This document shows, in pieces, positions 652 to 20,590 of a stretch of DNA of 23,950 nt. The position numbers were made by a program, and so were the translations under genes. How positions within the stretch are numbered: the first letter of the stretch is position 1; each line of letters opens with the position of its first letter. This DNA is from Chromera velia. Its lineage: Eukaryota > Sar > Chromeraceae. The notes below the pieces were generated by a model. The model was not told where the DNA came from and searched no databases. It saw nothing but the letters and a program-made list of their open reading frames with translations. The DNA lies in NCBI GenBank assembly GCA_018398765.1, contig JAHBMJ010001996.1, positions 1 to 23,950 of the forward strand, read 5' to 3'.

Positions 652-3466
652 TCAAAGAAAGTCGAGGTCGCCATTCTCTAATCCGAACTCCCGAATCATT
701 GCATCGTCGTCAGCAAACAGACCCCCCCCTCTCCCTGCTCTCCCAACCTGCATCCCTGGCCCTGGCATCATCGGCATCCCCCCAAGCATCTGCTGCATGA
801 CCACCTGCTGTTGCTGTGGCTGCGGTTGTTGCTGCAGTAGCTGTTGAAACCTCAGTTCTTGCTGCTGCACTCCGTGCATCACTTGCGGTGCATAAAATTC
901 CTGCACCTGGGGCTGCGCCGGCTGGAAAGGGAATCCAGGAACTCCAACTCCCCCTACAGCACCCCCTTGCACATTTCCACCTGCTAGCAAGGGATTCTGC
1001 TGGTTGATCAATCGATCGTACGCTTCTCGCTGTTGGGCCATTATTCGATCGATCACATCCTCCACCCCACCTCCAGGATAAGGGTCTGCACCTCTGAGAT
1101 GACCCCTGAGAGGGCCCACAAGGGCTTCTCCTTGGAGGTCTAGTATGTATCTGCCCCCCCCACCAACCTCCACTCTCCTCCTGTCAGCCTCATTGTCCTC
1201 AGGCACCTGCACTTCTGGAGCGCAGGGTTGGTGGTCGTCCCCGGGTCTCTCTGGCTGTTGTTGTGCTTCTGCCAGGTGCTGCCTGACAGTTGCGTCGATT
1301 TCAAGCTGCTCAGCGATCTGCGGCTCGTCTCTGCGAACCTCTTCCAGAAAGGCGCGGATCTTCACTCTGAGCTCGGGCACATGGGCGGCTTCAAGTTCTT
1401 CTCGGGACACGAAGAAAGAGGGTCTTTGTGGGTTGTGGGGGCACGCGGCCACGTGCGCATGACATGCCTGGTTGTCTTCACATCGCTGCAGACACAGGGC
1501 ACAGAATTTGCCCCCACATGTGCATGTGACCGCTGCACAGCCCTCAAACACAAACATCCGACCGCAACAAGGCGCAGTGACGAAGAAATTCAGCACCTCG
1601 GTCTCGATGCGACGGCGGTACATCCCTAACAATCCCTCCCTCTCCACCTCTGTTCGCACCCGTCCTTCCACCTCGGCCTCGATGCGGTCTCTCTGAGAAC
1701 GATCGCGCTCTTCCAGAAAACGCGCATAGGTCCCATCAGAGCACAACAACGCAATTGTCCGTTGACTGTACGCACCGTCTCCCTCACACCCGTGTCCCTT
1801 CATTGCACACTCAATCTTCAATTCTCCGTCTCCCTCTATCTCTATACCCGCCTCCAGTCTGTCCTTCACGTGGTCATCGAAGCAGTCCCGACAGAGGAAG
1901 TGGCCAGGATCACCCTGAGGGCACTCAGCACCCTCATCCACAGGGAAATCGTCAACACACCTCAAGCAAGTCAGCTTTCTTCCGTCTCCACCATCATCCC
2001 CAGCAGGCGGGGGATCTGCGGCGGCGGCGGGTGTGGGGGTTGCTGCTGCTTTGTGCGCCTCCACTGCCTCTTTGGCAAGGACTGCTTCTCTGGCGGTGCG
2101 GAGTCTCTCGAGCTCTTTGCGGTATTGCTCGGCGTCAGGTCTTGCAGCATCTGCCTGCCTCTCCATCTCTCTCAATGTGTGCAGAGCAGAGAGGACAGAC
2201 ACACGCGGGCGTCTCCGCAAGTCCTTCGCAAGGCAGCGGAGACAGAGCTCAGCGAATTCTCTTGCAACCTCAGGCTCCCACATCCCGGCACGCGAGTCGG
2301 CGTCCTGAGGCCCTAGGCGATGTTCCAGCGGGGGGGCGTCGGGGTCGTCTGCGTAGAGGTCTTCTCCTGCGTAGTGTTTGACTAGGTCTTTTTGAGGCGG
2401 GTTCTGTGTCTGTCCTGTGAAGAGCTCCAAGAGGAGGACCCCCAGGGAGTAGACCTCACTCGCAGGGGTGAAGACTCGTTCTGCTGCGTATTTTGGACAC
2501 ATGTAGCCCTGAGTGCCCACCTGTGAAGAAAAATTGAGATAATTTGACAAAAGACAGTGTATGTAAGGGAGTCAATATCGCGATCCCGAGGCTGGGTGCA
2601 AAGCACAAGTGTGTGTTCGAAAATCAGCTGGGGTAGGCTGTGCCAGGATATCACGCGTTTCGACATACCCTCGCGTATACGCACGTACATGCCACATTCA
2701 GAAAAAAACGGAAAACCCACCGCGAAGGCTCCAGTAGTGACGTGGTGACCAGCCTGTGCGTCTGGGACCAGGCGAGCGAGGGCCCAATCAGTCAGCATGG
2801 GCTTCAGTGCCGTTGTCAGGACAACATTCTCGGCTTTGATGTCTCTGTGGAGCACGGGGGGGCTATTGTTGTGCAGAAAGGAAACCGCAGCGAAGACCTG
2901 GAAGAGCAGGGGAAAGACAGAGCTGCGTAAAACAAGATTCAAGATGGAGATATATGAAAAGCTGAATGAGACAAGAGGTAGGAGACGGCTGCACCTACCT
3001 GACGTGCAATGGAGAGGCGTTCTCTCCATGTGAGCACCTTTGCCTCCTCCTGATGTGCCAAAAGAGATGCCAAGTCACCTCTGTGGCCTAGGGAGGTGAC
3101 CACAAGTGCATAGAGCTCCTTCGTCCCTCGTTTCTCCCTACTGCACACGCCAAGGATCCTGCATAGGTTCGGGTGATGTCGGGGAAGCGCACGAAAAGCG
3201 GCAGTTTCCTGTTCAATTGTCTTCAGCAACTCCTGTCTCTCGCCACACTGCGGTTCGAATTTCCGTAAGTCCAGGACCTTCACAGCAAACAGGAACTGCA
3301 GGCGTGCGTCAATGCCCTTGTATACAGTACCAAAGCCGCCAGACCCGATGACACGGTCTGGCGAGAACTGCAACGTGCACTCCTCCAGGTACGCCAGGGG
3401 AATGGAGTCCTGGAACTCCCCGGCCTTCAATTTCTCCGCAACACCCCGAAAGTCCGTCTCTGCCAT
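652..3466 (-). CDS. Protein kinase fused to RBR-like (RING1/Rcat) E3 ligase
   Basis: Three exons (3466-2999, 2897-2721, 2520-652) encode 837 residues. The start is ATG 3466; the longer open frame upstream has no earlier ATG. Both introns are phase 0 (donors GTAGGT and GTGGGT) and rejoin kinase subdomains VIa and VIII correctly. Residues about 38-330 form an RLK/Pelle-like Ser/Thr kinase: glycine loop GSGGFG (41-46), Lys63, probable helix-C Glu87, HRD at 173-175 with Lys177 and Asn180, DWA instead of DFG at 193-195, and CPK instead of APE at 223-225. A charged coiled-coil-like stretch follows (about 330-372). Cys400, 403, 415, His422, Cys425, 428, 453 and 460 resemble RING1. Residues 533-575 resemble an RBR RING2, with Cys543 at the catalytic position (EGC before TCTCGG). 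No clear C6HC IBR lies between them; the linker is helical and charged. The C-terminus is Gln/Pro/Gly/Met-rich (about 725-812) with an acidic tail. Expected activities are protein phosphorylation and ubiquitin transfer, inferred from domains only. The kinase call is strong, the ligase call moderate. Confidence 0.85.
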
Positions 3467-3775
3467 TGCAGTATTCAGACTGTCAAGAAGGGGACAAGAG
3501 GGCAGGAAGAGGCTCACGAAATTCACTGCTGCAGGTCTTTAGGGAACCTGGTGCACTGCCGGGGACAATGGCTGCTGCAGAACTGCAACTTGTGCGGAGA
3601 CCCTGTTAGACCCTGTATAAGCTGCGGCATTCACTCTTCATGCAGTTGTTTTTGCCTGACCTTTGCTGCATGCATGCATGCCGCGTGCAAGAGGCATCGC
3701 AAGGGGTATACGCGCGGTTACACGCGCGATGCACTTCTGCCGTGTGGGCCCGCGTCCTTTCTTGCAGGACGTACG
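3467..3775 (-). promoter_or_regulatory. Probable 5' UTR/promoter of the kinase/ligase gene
   Basis: This is the only spacer between the start codon at 3466 and the palindromic element at 3776, so the 5' UTR and core promoter probably lie here. The distal part is rich in CGCG and TGCATGC motifs (about 3665-3735). I recognise no TATA box or named site. Confidence 0.3.
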
Positions 3776-4227
3776 TATACCAAGACCAACTCAATTTGGC
3801 AAACCCATACAGCCAATTACGATTGTAATTGCAAGTGTGAAAAATATTTTTATCGCGCAAACAGTTTTTTGAGACTTGCAACATGTTTTTGATAATATTC
3901 GTGAAGTCTGTGCAAATTTTCAAGTTCGTACGCGCGACCAATTACGTTTGCAAAAGATTACAAAAAATATGAAAATTCAAAATCGGACTCAATTTGATTC
4001 TCAATTTTTTGGGTTTCCGGGGCCGCCCGGCTTTAAATTTTCATATTTTTGGCAAACATAATCGGTCGCGCGTACGTACAAACTTGAAAATTTGCACAGA
4101 CTTCACGAATATTATCAAAAACATGTTGCAAGCCTCAAAAGACTATTTGCATGATAAAAATATTTTTCACATTTGTAATCGCATTATCGCAATCGTAATC
4201 ATGCCAAATTGAGTTGGTCTTGGTATA
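3776..4227. mobile_element. Palindromic MITE/foldback element with TA-flanked termini
   Basis: The left arm (3778 to about 3983) and right arm (about 4033-4225) are imperfect reverse complements over nearly their whole length. The ends match exactly: TACCAAGACCAACTCAATTT on the left is mirrored at 4206-4225. Inside, the arms share AAAAATATTTTT, a CACGAATATTATCAAAAACATG-type block and the GTACGCGCGACC block. A loop of about 50 bp with a GC-rich core (GGGGCCGCCCGG) separates them. A TA dinucleotide sits outside each end (3776-3777, 4226-4227), as expected for a Tc1/mariner-type TA target duplication, although TATA at each border makes the exact edge ambiguous. There is no transposase frame, so the element is non-autonomous. 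Superfamily assignment is inference. Confidence 0.8.
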
Positions 4228-5875
4228 GGTAGGTGTTAGGTTGTTAGGTGAGGACCGTTAGGTGTTCAGTAGGTGGGGACCACAGGGTACATGGTGTAAG
4301 ACCTGTAGGTGCTCAGATACTATCAGATACCGCGGCTTTTACTGCCTTTTTGGCAGTAATGGCTTTCGATCATTTTTGCATTGAATGCATATCGTTTTAT
4401 GTCATCTGTTTCATTTATATTATGACCGGATTTTACCTTTTCACCTTAGCTGAATACACAATAATACACAATTGTGGTTCGATCTGATTAAAAATTTCTG
4501 TATGTGGCTTTCAATGACTTTCATTCACATTCACGCCTTCCTTTGCTTACTGTTGCATTAAAAGCGATCACAGGGTCCTACACACAAAACCTCAATCAAA
4601 AAATTACAGGGTCTTCTCGCGTAAGTATAATTGATGCATTCAATCTAATCAAATCTGTTAAACACGTTTTATAAGTCTGTTTGATACGCTGTCTACTACA
4701 CTACAGTCTAGTACGCTGTAGTTTTATGTACTGACCATTATAAGTTATACTACATTCTAAGCTGTATTCAGATTATAAAAATATTAAGATCATTTTGCGT
4801 CAGACAAAGCTACTAGCAAAGCCACTAAGTACTACATGCAAGTGTATAGCTTACCATAGTGACGCCTTTAATTCACATTTTATGTAGTAAACCACAACCT
4901 TCCCAGGTCTGCAGCCTGAACCGCGGGGAGTACCTCAGGTTGGAAGATAAATTAATCTTATTTGATCCTATGTAAGTTATCAAAATATATAAATTGAATA
5001 TAAATTCACGAATAAACTAGCGAATAAGTCTACTTCAATATTAATTAATTTCTTCCCAAATTCATTGTTTTTTAAACTAATCTTAGTTTTTAGCACAACT
5101 TTTTACTATTCAAAGTTTTTTTTCTGTAAATATTAAATAAAAACACATGTTTTTTAGTGAATGGTTCAGTTTTTGATCCATTCCAAGTCCCATTCCACAG
5201 ATATCATGATTAATGATGTAAAGCATTCGGCTAGGCATCCGGCCTTGCACGCTGCTATGATGTTGGGAGTGAAGGGAAACCTAGAAGGAAACCCCCATCG
5301 ATCGCTAGATCAATCGACTTTTTCTTTCAGAGTGCCCGAAGCGTGTGGGAGATAGGAAGAATACAGAATTTTCCATTCTGTCTGCAAGAGCAAGACGAGG
5401 CGTTAGGCTAGGTGCAAACCAATTCGAACTTAGGGGGAAAGGCGAATCGAATTGAATCGACTCAAATCAACTTCCAGTCACGGTGAGTGGTCTACTCATC
5501 CGTCTTCTCTTTCATTGTCTCATTCATTCAACAAACAAATCAATTTTGCTCCCCTGCAGACCCCCAACCGCCCCCCCCGTGTGCCCCACTTTTCACTGCC
5601 ATCCATTTGCGTGCACTTTCCGTGCACACAAAGATTCTTGAATTGACGCACGCCCGGACCCCTCATCCCTCAATCAAATTGAGGACAAGGAAGAGGGAGG
5701 AAGCAAAGAAGGGATGGATGGTTCGTGAGAAAAAGGAAAAATTATCTCAAAGAAAGAAAAGGGCGAAAAAGGCAGTAAAGAGGGACAACGAAAAAAGGAC
5801 AGAATACAAGTATAGAATAAATAGGTGAGAAGAAGGTATCACGAACGAATGAGAGGCTGAGAGGCCCGATGCAGT
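4228..5875. other. AT-rich intergenic region
   Basis: Just right of the palindromic element is a short degenerate GTTAGGTG-like stretch (about 4228-4285). AT-rich DNA follows to about 5160, then mixed sequence, and an A/G-rich tract on the plus strand (about 5680-5830) just beyond the stop codon of the next minus-strand gene. Open frames of 60-115 codons occur here but have no motif, no good splice context and a low-complexity composition. I see no gene. Confidence 0.5.
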
Positions 5876-10312: not shown

Positions 10313-13300
10313 ATGCGGTGCTTTCACCACAACACGCTTCCTTGCCGTCTCCCGCCCCTCCTAAAACGTCGCCGAGAGGAGACGGCACTACTCTCCCGCC
10401 GTTGCCTCCAGACTGCACTCTCCGCACATGTGCGTCGGGACGACCCATACAGAAGGCCCACGCTGAAGCTGAGACCGAAGTGCGACCGTCATTTGCTTAG
10501 AGGCTCGTCATGGGTGTGGCAGTCAGACATTCAAAATCACGGTGGGTCGAGATTACATGCCGTCTCCCTGTCTCTTCGTCTAGAGAACCCACTGCGGCCA
10601 TTCGCGCGCCACATGTGCATATCCAAAGGTGCCGGCATCCCATTTTTTGCATTTGCGCGCCCATTCAACAATTGAGCAGACCTTTCCATCAAGTGTGTGT
10701 CCAAGCGTTCCTTATATGAACGTTCCTGAGTGCAGGGGACCTCCAGCGTCACTCCCCTTGTCTTGTGAACGTAGAGAGTGCGGATGGAGAGGACCGAGGG
10801 GTTGCGACGTACAACCGCAACTCATCGATTGCAGCCAGGTGCGTGCAGGGAATCTTGTCAACGGATTTCGTTGTCAATGAGAAGGAGTGAAGAGCGTAGA
10901 AGAAGCGGGAAGCGTGCGCTACACAGAAGCGTGTCAGCATGGAAATGTAATAGCCGACTTGGAGGAGAAAGACGTTAAGCGATGGCAAAGGCCAGGCAAA
11001 TGTCCTTCGAAAACTTCTTCCATGATCTGCGTGCGCTGCCAGTGCCACTCACTGTACATACACACTCTGTCTGGATACGCCCGGCCTGTCTTCCTGTCTG
11101 TCTGTGCAGCGGGTAGACAGTCAACTCTTACCACTTGAGCCAGTGAGAAGAAGAGATAAAGTACTGGCAAGAGCAAGGCCTCCCCACTTTTCTCTCCTGT
11201 GTCCCGTCTACGTAGCTATTTTTGCTTCCCCCATCTGACGAAACATGCACTTTGGAAGCTGCTCCCTCGACGTATGTCCATGTTTTTGTTTTTCTTTTTC
11301 GTGTGCGAACGACTACGTGTGCCTTCAGGCTTCTTTCCCATGAAAGATTCGTGAGGATCGATGAGGCTTTCTTCTTTGACGTCCTCCAGAGAGCACTCAA
11401 ATTCAGACAGCGGTGCTTCCCAGAGCCCTTCTACAGGCAAGTCTTTGCCCCTCCCTCTCCGTCTTTGGTCTCTGTAGCAAACCAATCTGAGCTATCTACT
11501 GACAATGGGTGTCCCCTCCGCCCACTTGCGGAGAATGGAGAGATATCTGTCTGAAAAAATCGCCAAAAGCTTAACGCTGCTGTATCTCCACCATTGCTGT
11601 TCGCAACAAGACGGCGCGACCAGTGACTCCCTCTCTTCACTCACACGCACGATCTCTCTTTCTGCGTCGATTGCGTTCGAAACTTTCAATGGAGTGGTAT
11701 GTGCGTGCAACCAGAGCCATGCAATCTTCTCATTCCTCATGAATTCAGGCTTATCCATAAAAACCTGGCAGACTGTATTCATCCCTCCGTTTTCATCTAC
11801 ACTTGCACTTGCATGTTTGATTTGGGCATTTAAATAACCCAACATGGGGGAGACACTCGTCCTCGGTGTGCGTGCAGACTCATCCATGCCGAGGCAGATG
11901 GACTCCCTGGGGTTGTCATTGACAGGTCAGCAGGAGTAAGAGGGAAAGAAGGAAGACGAAGGGCCGGGGGACTGACCGTCCAGTCATGAAGATCAACTGG
12001 AGGGAAGGGGTGAGGAGAAGACCACGACCTTCTTGGCTGTCTTGCGGTATGTCTTGCTGTATCCTTTCTGTATCTTCCGCGGGGGAGCTCTCTCTGTATG
12101 GCAGTTCTCATTCCTCTTTCTCGGAGTGGTCCGGCGAGTGTGCATGGATCTGTTGTCGTTCCCCTCGTTCCCTCCTCCCTTGTCCTTTGTGAAGGTACGG
12201 CGACGAGGTGAGCATGATGATCAACTCTGCTGGGATGGACGGTCTGTCGGCTTCTCTTATCAGGGCAGTAGATGAGTGCCTCAAACCTCGAGTCATTGTC
12301 CTCAGGTCCGCCGATTTCCTGTTTCTTGTATGATCGTCCTTTTGTTCACTCAATTACGAGCGAGAGGAAAGTTCTGATGGGCGGTGGAAAAAACCGCTGA
12401 AAGCCTCCCAGTCGTGCATGCTTTTTAAGGATCTGAGTGCACAATTGACGCACGCAAAGAGGATCTGAGTGCACGATTGACGCACGCAAAAGGGATCTTA
12501 GTGCACAAGAAAGCAGACCCTCCATTTAGAAACGAAGAAGCGGGGCGAAGGTCAACAATGAAACAGGAAGACGAAGAAAGAAGGACTCATGGGGAAGAAG
12601 AAAGGAAAGCTCACACTTGCTCAAAGCTGCTGATTTCGCTTCCTTTCTTCCTTCCTGTATGCCTGCCTTCTTTTCCATCCTGTCTGTCCTATGCCCCGCC
12701 TGCAAGAACGCAATTTCAGACAGATAGCATTTTGATTTCAGCAGGAATGACATGAAGGAGCTTTGCCGTGCCTGCAGGAACGACAGTCCAGTACGAAAAC
12801 TTGAGAAGCTTCCTCTGACAAAAGAAGTTTGTAAAGGTATTTGGGGACGGAAGAGGTGGGGAGGTTGTTTGAGTTGGTGACTGGCTGGAGTCCCATTGTT
12901 TCGGCACCCCCAGTCTGGAGCTCTGTGCAGGAGGGGAGTTCTGATTTTCAAATTCATCTGTAGGTAAGGGTGTGTGTGCCTTTCCTAGAGAAAAGAAGTT
13001 CGCCCGAGTAATCTTTCTTTGAAAGCTGTTTGTCGCCGTGCGTGCAGGACAATATGCGGGTGCCACAGAAGTCCGAGAGAATGGATGTTCCTTTTTGGTC
13101 AGTTTGACTCGTGTGCCTGTATGTGTGTGCTACCATAAGATGATAGGTTCGGCAATGACTCTCTCGCAGCCTGGTGGCGTTTGATGTGGATCACATGAAT
13201 TCATGAATTGACGAAACCAGCAGTATGCCGTTGCAAAATCGAAACGTCTTTTGATGTGATGTGAAGTGGGATGCACGTTCATATGATGATCGAGAGTGAG

Positions 13301-15382
13301 TGAGTGAGTGAGTACATGCAGGTCGACCTTTTGGAGGGGCAGAAGACCGGGTGGTACTTCGACCAGAGAGACAACAGGGCTCTCCTGACAGGATACGCGG
13401 AGGGGAGAGACGTCTTGGGTGGGTAGAATGATTCTGCCCTTCTCTTTCGAACGTTCAGAAAGTTCCTGTTCTGACGCGATAGGTGGAGGGAAAATGGAGG
13501 GGAGAGGTATGCTGAATCAGAGGACTGCGAAATGTGAAACAAGAACTCAAGCATTTTTGTATTCCGTTTGTATGAATTGAATGGGCATCCAAACTTTCAT
13601 GCAGACCTATTTGCATACACGGGAGGTTTTGGAATTCAAGCGGCGGCGTACGGAGCCTCCCAGGTGACCTGTGTGGACTCGTCGGCCCCCGCGGTCAACT
13701 TCTGCAAACAGAACGCAGCCCTGAATGCAGTAGCCTCGAAGGTCGGTCGGTCGGTCGCAGTCTTGTAGGAGTGCGTGCTTGGGTAGATGCTTTTCTGACA
13801 ACTACCTACAAAGACTGACGACGATCACGCTTCGTTCTCCTGGTCTCGCGGGATAGATAGTCCATTTTGAATCAGCTTCCGTGGCGTAGATTTGAAGAGT
13901 GATATGCTGGGCTGCTAATCTTCCAGAAGCCGGGAGGGCGGCAGAGTATTTTCCGGGCTGAATGAAAGATCATTCCAAAAGAGCGGTGGGGTTCCTTTCC
14001 GTGTTCACACGTGCATTCAAAAATCATGGGCTCCGTTCATGGCGTTCATGGGTGTACGTGCAGGTGCGTGTGGAAAAAAGCTGTGCATTTGGGTGGCTTG
14101 AGAAGGCAACGGGCACGAGCTATCACAAGTTGAAGGAGCAGAGGAAGGAAGAGAGACGCAAAAGGGCAGCTGCAGTAAGCGGAGCTCTGTGGTCTTCAGA
14201 CGATGAGGAAGAACAAGAAGAGGAAGAGAGAAAGCCTGAAGGAAAGGGTAGGAGGTCACGGGAGTCTTCTGCCTTTGTTGACTCAGAGGTATCGGAGATA
14301 CAGGAACCGAAAATAGATTATGAAGAGCGGAGAAATTTCAGCGCAAACAGTGGAGGGACGGTTCAAGGAATCCGCAAAGAGAGTGAAGAGGAATCTATGG
14401 AGCATCAAGAGATTCAAGGGGGAGAGATGGAAGACTTCAGGACACCCGAAGCCGTCGCTCCACAATTCGATTTGATCGTCATCGATCCCCCTCCAATGGC
14501 CCGGCATGTCAATCTTGTCTACTCAGCCTTGCCGCGGTTGCGGCGCCTGGTTGCAGAGGTCAGCATGTGTGCTTCTCTTTTACATTGCAGGGAGTATGTA
14601 GAGATGACCCTCTCAAATCACCGACCTCTGTGCATAGGCGTCCTGGCCCCCACTGAGAGTGGCTGCGGTTTGCAAACATACCGAAATACACGTACACCCA
14701 AACGGAGGGAAATTCAGGCTGACCAGCTGTCCCACTTCCCGCGCTTGCGAACATCTTGCGTCTTTTTTTTTTTTCTGGTCGTAAAGTGGGGGTGTGAAAG
14801 GACAAAAAGACACTTTGACCATCCATCTGTCCGACGCACGCAGGCGTCTCTCCTTCTCCGGGAAGATGGGGTCCTCTTCGTGTCCTCCTGTTCCAGGGCC
14901 ATTGATGCCAGGACGCTTCTTGCATGCGCACAGCGGTCCGTAACGGCCTTGTGGGTTTCTAGCTTCGGAAATTGAAACGTTTCTACTCTGCTCCTCACGC
15001 GCGAATTAAATCAATTTTTGTCGATTTGATACTGGACGTGCCTCTTGTTTTTTCTAAATTACAATGAGCAAATCGTCAGTGTTGACTTCAGGGGCTCATC
15101 AGGGAGCACCGTTTTCAATTCACACAGAGCCAGGCAGCACTTTTCTGCGTAAGTTTTCTGTTTCTCCAGTTTCATAGAAATTGTCGCTTTTTCATGCCAA
15201 TAACAAAGAGACGCAATTCCCTGAGGCTCTTTTTCTTTCTGTCTGTCGCCAACAGCGGTGTGGCTGTTGCAGGGCGGCGGTGTCAGCTGATAGCCCAGAG
15301 CGGCGCCTCCCCCGACCACCCCGTGCATCCGTCGATACCTGAGACTTCCTATTTGTCCGCCCTCACCCTCCGCGTATTTTGA
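10313..15382 (+). CDS. RlmI-type rRNA (cytosine-5)-methyltransferase
   Basis: Twelve exons join in frame: 10313-10541, 10736-10838, 11329-11436, 11878-11925, 12195-12305, 12778-12836, 13048-13097, 13322-13418, 13605-13741, 14064-14558, 14844-14935 and 15256-15382 (TGA), giving 551 residues. The protein follows the RlmI family end to end. A PUA domain (about 50-112: [23 protein letters not shown]) leads into the DEAFF...[19 protein letters not shown] linker and then [22 protein letters not shown] motif I is [10 protein letters not shown] (269-278), motif IV is [10 protein letters not shown] (449-458), and SSCS holds the expected catalytic Cys495. The [22 protein letters not shown] ending matches the family terminus. 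Bacterial RlmI makes m5C in 23S rRNA using S-adenosylmethionine. The first 40 or so residues are rich in Arg and hydroxyl/hydrophobic residues, suggesting organelle import (inferred). Odd features are a charged insertion at about 332-447, one GC-AG intron, and several GTC donors. The exact start is the least certain point. Confidence 0.93.
11437..11877 (+). other. GC-AG intron of the methyltransferase gene
   Basis: The upstream exon ends CTTCTACAG and the intron begins GCAAGT, the usual form of a GC donor. The next exon starts after GTGCGTGCAG. Joining them restores EPFYR followed by [11 protein letters not shown], exactly as the RlmI family requires. No GT donor near 11437 gives that product in frame. 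Confidence 0.85.
12429..12510 (+). repeat. 32-bp tandem repeat, about 2.5 copies, intronic
   Basis: Two nearly identical 32-bp units (12429-12460 and 12461-12492) begin GGATCTGAGTGCAC and end in GACGCACGCAAA plus two bases. A partial third unit (12493-12510) begins GGATCTTAGTGCACAAGA. The array lies inside the fifth intron of the methyltransferase gene (12306-12777). Confidence 0.9.
12745..12777 (+). other. Alternative in-frame acceptor segment (33 nt)
   Basis: Two acceptors with similar downstream sequence precede the sixth exon: TTTCAGCAG before GAATGAC at 12745, and CCTGCAG before GAACGAC at 12778. They are 33 nt apart, so either gives an open product. The inner one matches the RlmI family spacing ([13 protein letters not shown]); the outer one would add 11 residues beginning NDMKELC. 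Confidence 0.5.
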
Positions 15383-17947: not shown

Positions 17948-18083
17948 TCTTGTTTTTTCTGACTCCTCCTCTCACCTGAGGGTCCGGGTGCTGACGAGCG
18001 ACTCTTGTTCTTTCTGATCACCACTCATCTGGGGGAGTGCTGACAAGCGATTCTTGTTTTTTCTGATCACCTCTCATCTGGAG
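17948..18083 (+). repeat. Degenerate repeat of about 50 bp, three copies
   Basis: Three units start at TCTTGTT(T/C)TTTCTGA near 17948, 18003 and 18052, each followed by a CTC(A/T)(C/T)CTG-type stretch. The last two share GTGCTGACRAGCGA at their junctions. They lead directly into the 423-bp array, whose own units carry GATTCTTGT-type sequence, so they may be its degenerate edge. Confidence 0.7.
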
Positions 18084-18084
18084 G

Positions 18085-20590
18085 AAGAACATGAGTAAGT
18101 GAGTGGGTAAGTGAGTGAGTGGGATGTGAGTGAGTGAGTGAGTGTGTGAGTGAGCTTAGTCTAAGAACGTAAGCCCCCTTTTCCCTCTTTGCTGCGACCT
18201 GCTTGTGAGTGGGTGAGGGAGACCCTGAGTAACTATGTGATGGACGCATGCCCTCAAACGCACACTGACCATGCAGAGAGAACAGACAACGCCAACCAGA
18301 AGCACCTACCCCTGAATCCACGAACGCAGCAAAGAAGTAAGAATGAGGCAACAGACTAAAGTGGATTCTTGTCTGAAGTGTGAGTGCGTGCAGGAGAACC
18401 TAGCTAGTAGGGGAGATCACGACTGATTGCAGAAGTGATGAATGCATATGAACGCTATCTTCTCTTCTTGTCTGCCATCAGCATGGCCTGAGAGTAAATG
18501 GGGAAGAACATGAGTAAGTGAGTGGGTAAGTGAGTGAGTGGGATGCGAGCGAGTGAGTGAGTGAGTGCGTGAGTGAGCTTAGTCTAAGAACGCAAGCCCC
18601 CTTTTCCTTCTTTGCTGCGACCTGCTTGTGAGTGGGTGAGGGAGACCCTAAGTAACTATGTGATGGACGCATGCCCTCAAATGCAAACTGACCATGCAGA
18701 GAGAACAGACAACGCCAACCAGAAACACCTACCCCTGAATCTATGCACACAACAAAGAAGTAAGAATGAGGCAACAGACCAATGTGGATTCTTGTCGGAA
18801 GTGTGAATGTGTGCAGGAGAACCTAGCTAGTAGGGGAGATCACGACTGATTGCAGAAGTGATGAACGCATATGAACGCCATCTTCTCTTCTTGTCTGCCA
18901 TCAGCATGGCCTGAGAGTAAATGAGGAAGAACATGAGTAAGTGAGTGGGTAAGTGAGTGAGTGGGATGCGAGCGAGTGAGTGAGTGAGTGCGTGAGTGAA
19001 CTTAGTCTAAGAACGCAAGCCCCCTTTTCCCTCTTTGCTGCGACCTGCTTGTGAGTGGGTGAGGGAGACCCTGAGTAACTATATGATGGACGCATGCCCT
19101 CAAACGCAAACTGACCATGCAGAGAGAACAGACAACGCCAACCAGAAGCACCTACCCCTGCATCCATACACACAACAAAGAAGTAAGAATGAGGCAACAG
19201 ACCAATGTGGATTCTTGTCTGAAGTGTGAGTGTGTGCAGGAGAACCTAGCTAGTAGGGGAGATCACGACTGATTGCAGAAGTGATGAACGCATATAAACG
19301 CCATCTTCTCTTCTTCTCTGCCATCAGTATGGCCTGAGAGTAAATGAGGAAGAACATGAGTAAGTGAGTGGGTAAGTGAGTGAGTGGGATGCGAGCGAGT
19401 GAGTGAGTGAGTGCGTGAGTGAGCTTAGTCTAAGAACGCAAGCCCCCTTTTCCCTCTTTGCTGCGACCTGCTTGTGAGTGGGTGAGGGAGACCCTGAGTA
19501 ACTATATGATGGACGCATGCCCTCAAACGCAAACTGACCATGCAGAGAGAACAGACAACGCCAACCAGAAGCACCTACCCCTGCATCCATACACACAACA
19601 AAGAAGTAAGAATGAGGCAACAGACCAATGTGAATTCTTGTCTGAAGTGTGAGTGTGTGCAGGAGAACCTAGCTAGTAGGGGAGATCACGACTGATTGCA
19701 GAAGTGATGAACGCATATGAACGTCATCTTCTCTTCTTGTCTGCCATCAGTATGGCCTGAGAGTAAATGAGGAAGAACATCAGTAAGTGAGTAGCTAAGT
19801 GAGTGAGTGGGACGCGAGCGAGTAAGTGAGTGAGTGCGTGAGTGAGCTTAGTCTAAGAACGCAAGCCCCCTTTTCCCTCTTTGCTGCGACCTGCTTATGA
19901 GTGGGTGAGGGAGACCCTAAGTAACTATGTGATGGACGCATGCCCTCAAACGCAAACTGACCATGCAGAGAGAACAGACAACGCCAACCAGAAACACCTA
20001 CCCCTGCATCCATGTACACAACAAAGAAGTAAGAATGAGGCAACAGACCAATGTGGATTCTTGTCTGAAGTGTGAGTGTGTGCAGGAGAATATAGCTATA
20101 TAGTAGGGGAGATCACGACTGATTGCAAAAGTGATGAATGCATATGAACGCCATCTCCTCTTCTTCTCTGCCATCAGCATGGCCTGAGAGTAAATGAGGA
20201 AGAACATGAGTAAGTGACTGCATGAGCAATCGGGTGAGAGATGAACGCACTCTTCTCTTTGTTTCTGCAATCAGCATGGCATGAAAGTGAGTGAGGAAGA
20301 ACATCAGTAAGTGAGTGCGTATGTGAGTGAGTGAGTGAGTGAGTAAGTGCAGTATAAGAACGCAAGCTCCCTTTTGCGTCTTTGCTGCGACCTGCTTGTG
20401 AGTGGGTGAGGGAGACCCTGAGTGACTGTGTGATGGACGCATGCCCTCAAACGCAAACCGCCCGCAAACTGACCAACATGCACAGACAACGCCAGCGAGA
20501 AGCACCAAATCCCGCATCCAGAAACCAAAGAAATAAAAATGAGGCAAGAGACCAACGTAGATTCTTGTGAATATGTGCAGGAGAACCTAT
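18085..20590. repeat. Satellite-like tandem array, about 423-bp period
   Basis: The landmark ATGGCCTGAGAGTAAATG recurs at 18483, 18906, 19329, 19752 and 20179, spacings of 423, 423, 423 and 427 bp. A diverged partial copy precedes it (18085-18482). A short unit of 97 bp and a diverged last copy follow (20179-20275, 20276 to about 20590). Each full unit has a (GAGT)n-like block of about 80 bp, then GAACGCAAGCCCCCTTTTCC, a unique-looking middle, GTGTGCAGGAGAACCTAGCT, and a pyrimidine-rich stretch ending in CCATCAG. The two central copies (18906 and 19329) differ at only about five positions by eye, while the outer copies are more diverged, as expected of an array homogenised by unequal exchange. 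Each unit has open frames on both strands; I do not regard them as genes. Confidence 0.95.

Follow-up and report, generated by a model that had tools for sequence, protein, structure and literature searches.

A predicted Chromera velia protein joining an RLK/Pelle-type kinase to two Cys/His-rich domains

Kinase and ubiquitin signalling usually connect through separate proteins. KEEP ON GOING (KEG) of Arabidopsis has an N-terminal RING together with ankyrin and HERC2-like repeats, MEKK1/MAP3K1 has a kinase domain, and the RBR E3 ligase RNF216/TRIAD3 carries a BRcat between its RING1 and Rcat and has no kinase. KEG is described as a RING E3 and a protein kinase domain in one polypeptide (PMC5385374), MEKK1 as having a PHD zinc domain with E3 activity (PMC13008643), and RBR enzymes as RING1-BRcat-Rcat proteins with the catalytic Cys in the Rcat (PMC3940038). 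The main text of a survey of plant RBR proteins divides them into four subfamilies (Ariadne, ARA54, Helicase and Plant II) and contains no word beginning “kinase” (PMC2904391). In a paper on the Phytophthora infestans kinome neither “RING” nor “zinc finger” occurs as a whole word, and the entries seen in its domain table include zinc domains of other kinds, FYVE and ZF-B, on kinases (PMC3019232). No kinase–RBR fusion was found in the literature searched, from sources available in part, which does not prove that none is in print.

We considered a gene from Chromera velia (contig JAHBMJ010001996.1) that an earlier note had read as a receptor-like-type kinase joined to an RBR-like ubiquitin ligase module. 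The window, meaning the whole stretch of DNA analysed, is 23,950 nucleotides long. In the explanation that we find the most probable, though well short of certain, one spliced gene encodes a kinase–E3 candidate made up of an RLK/Pelle-type kinase, a RING-like domain and a second zinc domain, with no transmembrane segment.

The gene and its kinase domain

Rebuilding the gene at 652-3466 on the minus strand gave three exons encoding 837 residues and one stop. Exon 1 (2999..3466) begins with the ATG at 3466-3464 and encodes residues 1-156, including the kinase N-lobe, the G-loop and K63; exon 2 (2721..2897) encodes residues 157-215, with the HRD D175, N180 and the sequence DWA at the DFG position; and exon 3 (652..2520) holds residues 216-837 and the stop, so that a single open frame runs from the C-lobe of the kinase through both Cys-rich domains to the end of the tail. 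Both introns are predicted from the sequence and are of the GT-AG type in phase 0, intron 1 (2898..2998) running GTAGGT...CCAG after CAG and intron 2 (2521..2720) running GTGGGT...ACAG after GCG, so that each exon ends at a codon boundary. The splice sites chosen are consensus GT-AG pairs, and among the combinations listed others keep the frame too. The exons, the introns and the protein length given previously were all reproduced. The C-terminal tail (residues 581-837; 655..1425) contains Q-rich runs and is without a family match in Pfam.

Exon 3 runs for 622 sense codons without a stop, compared to a longest open run of 290 in 300 composition shuffles of the same stretch. Since it encodes the C-lobe of the kinase as well as the Cys-rich parts, their joining is independent of splicing, and the idea that kinase and zinc parts are separate genes was ruled out. 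The fusion is predicted from genomic sequence, and a wrong prediction or assembly might in principle have merged two genes, but the C-lobe (residues 216-335) and the Cys-rich parts follow one another uninterrupted in a frame of a length that makes a wrong join unlikely. We therefore regard such an artefact as very improbable.

Directly upstream of the gene lies a long imperfect inverted repeat (3769-4234) that resembles a foldback element, with arms of 105 nt at 3828-3932 and 4075-4179 (92% complementary), arms of 33 nt at 3769-3801 and 4202-4234 (94%), and shorter pairs inside. Elsewhere in the window, exons of an RlmI-like rRNA methyltransferase are dispersed over 10316-15000 on the plus strand. 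Among them, 13322-13420 and 13607-13741 hit methyltransferase models of NCBIfam with best E-values of 1e-7 and 1.1e-7 (the latter RlmK/L) and the RlmI model with 5.9e-5 and 5.9e-6, all of these matches being far below whole-protein cut-offs; there is also a trace of PUA_3 at 10316-10672 (E=0.011), and near 14484 the motif DPPPMAR. A tandem repeat at 18081-20217 has a unit of 423 bases in 5.1 copies with 95% matches, and at least five minus-strand frames within it, of 82-98 residues, begin MPHSYFF. The window holds at least one gene with introns; a tRNA search of it found none and an Rfam search gave no match.

The kinase domain (residues 37-322; 2200..3358, minus strand) spans both introns and is matched by Pfam Pkinase PF00069 with E=6.4e-34 and by PF07714 (PK_Tyr_Ser-Thr) with E=6.1e-27. 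A sequence search of the PDB gave 2072 matches at E<=0.001, of which the best 60 are mostly RLK/Pelle kinases and include ScRIPK, PBL2, BIK1, BRI1, BAK1 and the animal IRAK1/IRAK4, with an EGFR entry in the fourth row. Because these best matches are mostly RLK/Pelle, assignment to that group is supported, and together with the Pfam result it bears out the claim of a receptor-like-type kinase. A full receptor, with a transmembrane segment and an N-terminal extracellular part, is not what hydropathy indicates: windows along the 837 residues showed no transmembrane-like or N-terminal hydrophobic stretch, the highest 19-residue mean (1.39) lies within the kinase, and the first 60 windows are at most 0.84.

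The kinase had also been credited with all main landmarks, and this holds for the catalytic Lys (K63), the HRD motif (H173-R174-D175), the Asn (N180) and the metal-binding Asp (D193). It does not hold for three other positions in the translation: DFG is replaced by DWA (D193-W194-A195; 2781-2789), APE by CPK (C223-P224-K225; 2491-2499), and the helix-F Asp by E237 (2455-2457), all on the minus strand. These three changes leave catalytic activity plausible but not assured. The domain could instead have weak kinase activity or, as a pseudokinase, none, and act as a sensor or scaffold in a protein that works mainly through zinc domains, which would be compatible with any of the readings below. 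DWA, the K225 in place of the APE Glu and E237 point in this direction, but the four retained catalytic residues and the strong Pfam score speak against it, and we think it rather doubtful.

The first Cys/His-rich domain and the linker

A RING1-like set of Cys and His had been noticed at residues 400-460 (1786..1968, minus strand), and it stands. Eight predicted ligands (C400, C403, C415, H422, C425, C428, C453 and C460) follow RING spacing, C-x2-C-x11-C-x6-H-x2-C-x2-C-x24-C-x6-C, with a C415-x6-H422 gap larger than is usual for a RING, and they are in frame with the kinase. Scored against a profile of seven RBR RING1s, the segment 396-495 reaches 19.7 bits, a value attained by none of 2000 full shuffles and none of 2000 shuffles with Cys and His fixed. 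True RBR RING1s, each left out in turn, score 14.6-65.5 bits on this profile and ten ordinary RINGs 5.8-20.0. On an ordinary-RING profile the domain scores 9.2-11.9 bits compared to 25.3-52.0 for true members left out. Pairwise alignment ranks the RNF216 RING1 highest with 68, a score against the RNF216 RBR equalled by 0 of 1000 full and 1 of 1000 Cys/His-fixed shuffles, followed by ARIH1 (56) and HOIP (51), while the best of ten ordinary RINGs is RNF4 (48) and the remaining four RBR RING1s give 36-46; unequal fragment lengths give the longer RBR RING1s an advantage in this ranking. The profile shuffles, the ordinary-RING control and the pairwise ranks together suggest that residues 400-460 are RING-like beyond chance and lean, without proof, to the RBR kind.

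The profile search that the earlier note had proposed for the zinc region brought no Pfam RING, IBR or RBR model to the cut-off for either domain, and the 187-residue region as a whole had no Pfam match. The trimmed RING segment gave seven rows below cut-off, headed by DUF7685 (0.078), level with zf-RING_2 (0.079), and including zf-RING_14 (0.2) and zf-RING_5 (0.29). NCBIfam had no match at E<=1 for either domain. Searching the PDB by sequence gave eight matches for the RING1 segment (E 0.8-1.7), namely seven fluorescent proteins and RNF4, and only two unrelated matches for the zinc region (E 1.3-2.4).

Between the two domains, at the position of the BRcat in an RBR, lies a charged and probably helical linker (residues 476-532; 1570..1740, minus strand), in which 24 of 57 residues are charged and there is neither a Cys nor a His. 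Residues from about 480 to 519 are mostly helical (pLDDT 57-87), within an otherwise poor AlphaFold model of 390-595. As a BRcat requires zinc ligands of its own, there is none here, and the linker is ruled out as an IBR. With the BRcat/IBR that should separate RING1 from Rcat absent, we do not file the protein as an RBR, and this classification was dropped. The proposal that a charged helical linker had replaced the IBR is right as to the charge and the lack of a zinc domain; that an IBR was formerly present is inferred.

The second Cys/His-rich domain

The second domain (residues 533-575; 1441..1569, minus strand), which is Rcat-like or RING-like by profile and pairwise scores, contains C533, C534, C543, C548, C550, C555, C558, C562, C568, H569, H571 and C575. 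Alignment to RNF216 places Cys543 (codon 1537..1539, minus strand) at the catalytic position, should the domain be an Rcat. The stretch EGC-x2-V-T-C-x-CG-x2-F-C-x2-C aligns with RNF216 EGCNRMSCRCGAQMCYLC, the pattern common to both being EGC-x4-C-x-CG-x3-C-x2-C, and the RNF216 entry 8eb0 carries Ala at the Cys aligned with Cys543, which fits a catalytic role of that Cys in RNF216. The RING2/Rcat-like set described before, with its Cys543, is thus present, except that C533 and C534, its first pair, stand side by side and not as C-x2-C.

One possible, though doubtful, reading is that of a reduced RBR, in which ubiquitin would go by way of RING1 from an E2 to Cys543, in an Rcat of the RNF216/RNF14 type, and from there to the substrate, a helix would replace the BRcat, and the fused kinase would exert control. 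Consistent with this, the two best pairwise fragments for the second domain are Rcats, RNF14 (65) and RNF216 (64), the RNF216 RBR score of 64 being equalled by none of 1000 full shuffles, and the first domain, nearest to the RNF216 RING1, has C-x2-C-x11-C and H-x2-C-x2-C in common with it. Residues 396-583 as a whole score 77 against the RNF216 RBR (0 of 1000 full and 7 of 1000 Cys/His-fixed shuffles). On an Rcat profile of 11 members the second domain scores 8.4-8.6 bits, the upper value reached by 0 of 2000 full and 3 of 2000 Cys/His-fixed shuffles, compared to 3.6 on a BRcat profile (4 and 21 of 2000, respectively); these profile scores are rough. However, true Rcats left out in turn score 23.6-63.6 bits on the Rcat profile, which leaves the second domain among known BRcats (4.9-17.9) and ordinary RINGs (4.4-17.5). 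Against this reading there are also the 28 of 1000 Cys/His-fixed shuffles that equal the RNF216 score, the CC pair, the lack of a BRcat as a defining part of RBRs, and a pairwise score for the ordinary RING CNOT4 (59) that is near the best Rcats and is followed by the RNF144A Rcat (58) and the best BRcat, that of RNF14 (52). The earlier description of an RBR-like module with a catalytic Cys543 is possible without being demonstrated: the second domain beats shuffles on the Rcat profile, but its score there is one that ordinary RINGs and known BRcats also reach.

Alternatively, and also tentatively, both could be zinc domains of an ordinary sort. The second would then be a RING, either C4C4 or degenerate, or else a purely structural zinc fold, Cys543 would be a zinc ligand or a bystander, and the chain would act, if at all, as a RING-type scaffold E3. 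Of six PDB sequence matches to the second domain the CNOT4 RING ranks best, though without significance (E=0.22); it has the same C-x-CG-x3-C-x2-C, and four of the ten ordinary RINGs outscore the second domain on the Rcat profile. The adjacency of C533 and C534 would leave the first zinc site one standard ligand short, which Cys543 could supply. In contrast, the EGC ahead of the C-x-C pair is as in RNF216, and on the ordinary-RING profile the second domain scores 2.4-7.9 bits, far from the true members; true Rcats are also low there (-5.3 to 15.4), so the score counts against an ordinary RING and not for an Rcat. Pfam IBR gives E=1.7, below cut-off. An Rcat at this position is possible, not established.

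Structure prediction was another check that had been proposed. The single-sequence AlphaFold models of residues 390-595 (mean pLDDT 41.8) and 505-590 (52.3) were too poor to use for the zinc parts, and Foldseek of the latter against the PDB gave 212 matches at E<=10 and none at E<=0.001. A search for the same domain order elsewhere brought no relatives from phage, viral or prokaryote collections, an absence that says little, given this scope. As a protein, the zinc region had no match in phages, nine pattern stretches in viral contigs and 133 stretches in prokaryote genomes, none a relative. Five DNA patterns for the second domain gave 0, 7, 12, 0 and 0 loci in viral contigs. The 12 came from a relaxed form of a pattern that fits the window's own loop (one match in the window, none by chance in 100 shuffles); the others, like the pattern behind a single prokaryote locus (an 81-codon stretch, no relative), go back, in whole or in part, to a putative algal/protist motif, to which this loop does not conform exactly. 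The 19 viral loci, read in frame at one matched position each (the first, for the one locus with two), have frames of 5-111 codons and by eye are no relatives.

A kinase–E3 candidate among known systems

In the single-chain kinase–E3 candidate that we favour, the order along the chain is RLK/Pelle-type kinase, RING-like domain, charged helical spacer and second zinc domain. The predicted Cys/His ligands would bind zinc and the RING-like domain would bind E2~ubiquitin, while the kinase might either label the substrate on which its own ligase domain acts or regulate the ligase through autophosphorylation, a mechanism that has been suggested for KEG. The second domain could help ubiquitin transfer, whether by forming a thioester at Cys543 or in a purely structural role, as a zinc domain. 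One protein may in this way both phosphorylate and ubiquitinate its targets. Of the coupling of phosphorylation to ubiquitin transfer that had been proposed for this chain, the pairing of kinase and RING-like domain in one polypeptide remains, and an RBR mechanism is possible, unproven. By analogy, the protein could be a one-polypeptide counterpart of PINK1–parkin, with the kinase fused to a stripped RNF216-like transthiolation ligase (RING1, helix and Rcat, no BRcat), which we consider unlikely; if true, it would show that the BRcat can be done without and that direct coupling of a kinase to a thioester-forming E3 is possible.

With an RLK-type kinase and a BRcat-less, two-part zinc module in one chain, it would become possible to test directly the coupling of kinase to ligase, and how few domains suffice for RBR-type transfer. 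Should the second domain be only structural, the protein would join KEG and MEKK1 as one more of the kinase–RING sort, and its importance would be modest.

The closest solved kinase domains, among the best 60 of the 2072 matches, are those of RLK/Pelle kinases such as ScRIPK, PBL2, BIK1, BRI1 and IRAK4, and the top match has the same GTQGY activation segment, but DWA, CPK, E237 and the lack of a transmembrane-like stretch set this protein apart. CNOT4 shares the C-x-CG-x3-C-x2-C spacing of its C4C4 RING with the second domain, which differs in its extra EGC, its C-terminal Cys/His and its CC pair. RNF216 is the nearest of seven RBR RING1s and, after RNF14, the second of 11 Rcats, though the overall similarity is weak. 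MEKK1 differs in domain order and kinase family, and its zinc domain is described as a PHD; the likeness is a kinase and an E3-active zinc domain in one protein. Unlike in KEG, the kinase here comes first and is RLK-like, and two zinc domains follow it, separated by a helical spacer. In our best reading, this kinase–E3 candidate belongs to a general kind already represented by KEG and MEKK1, and its arrangement is new.
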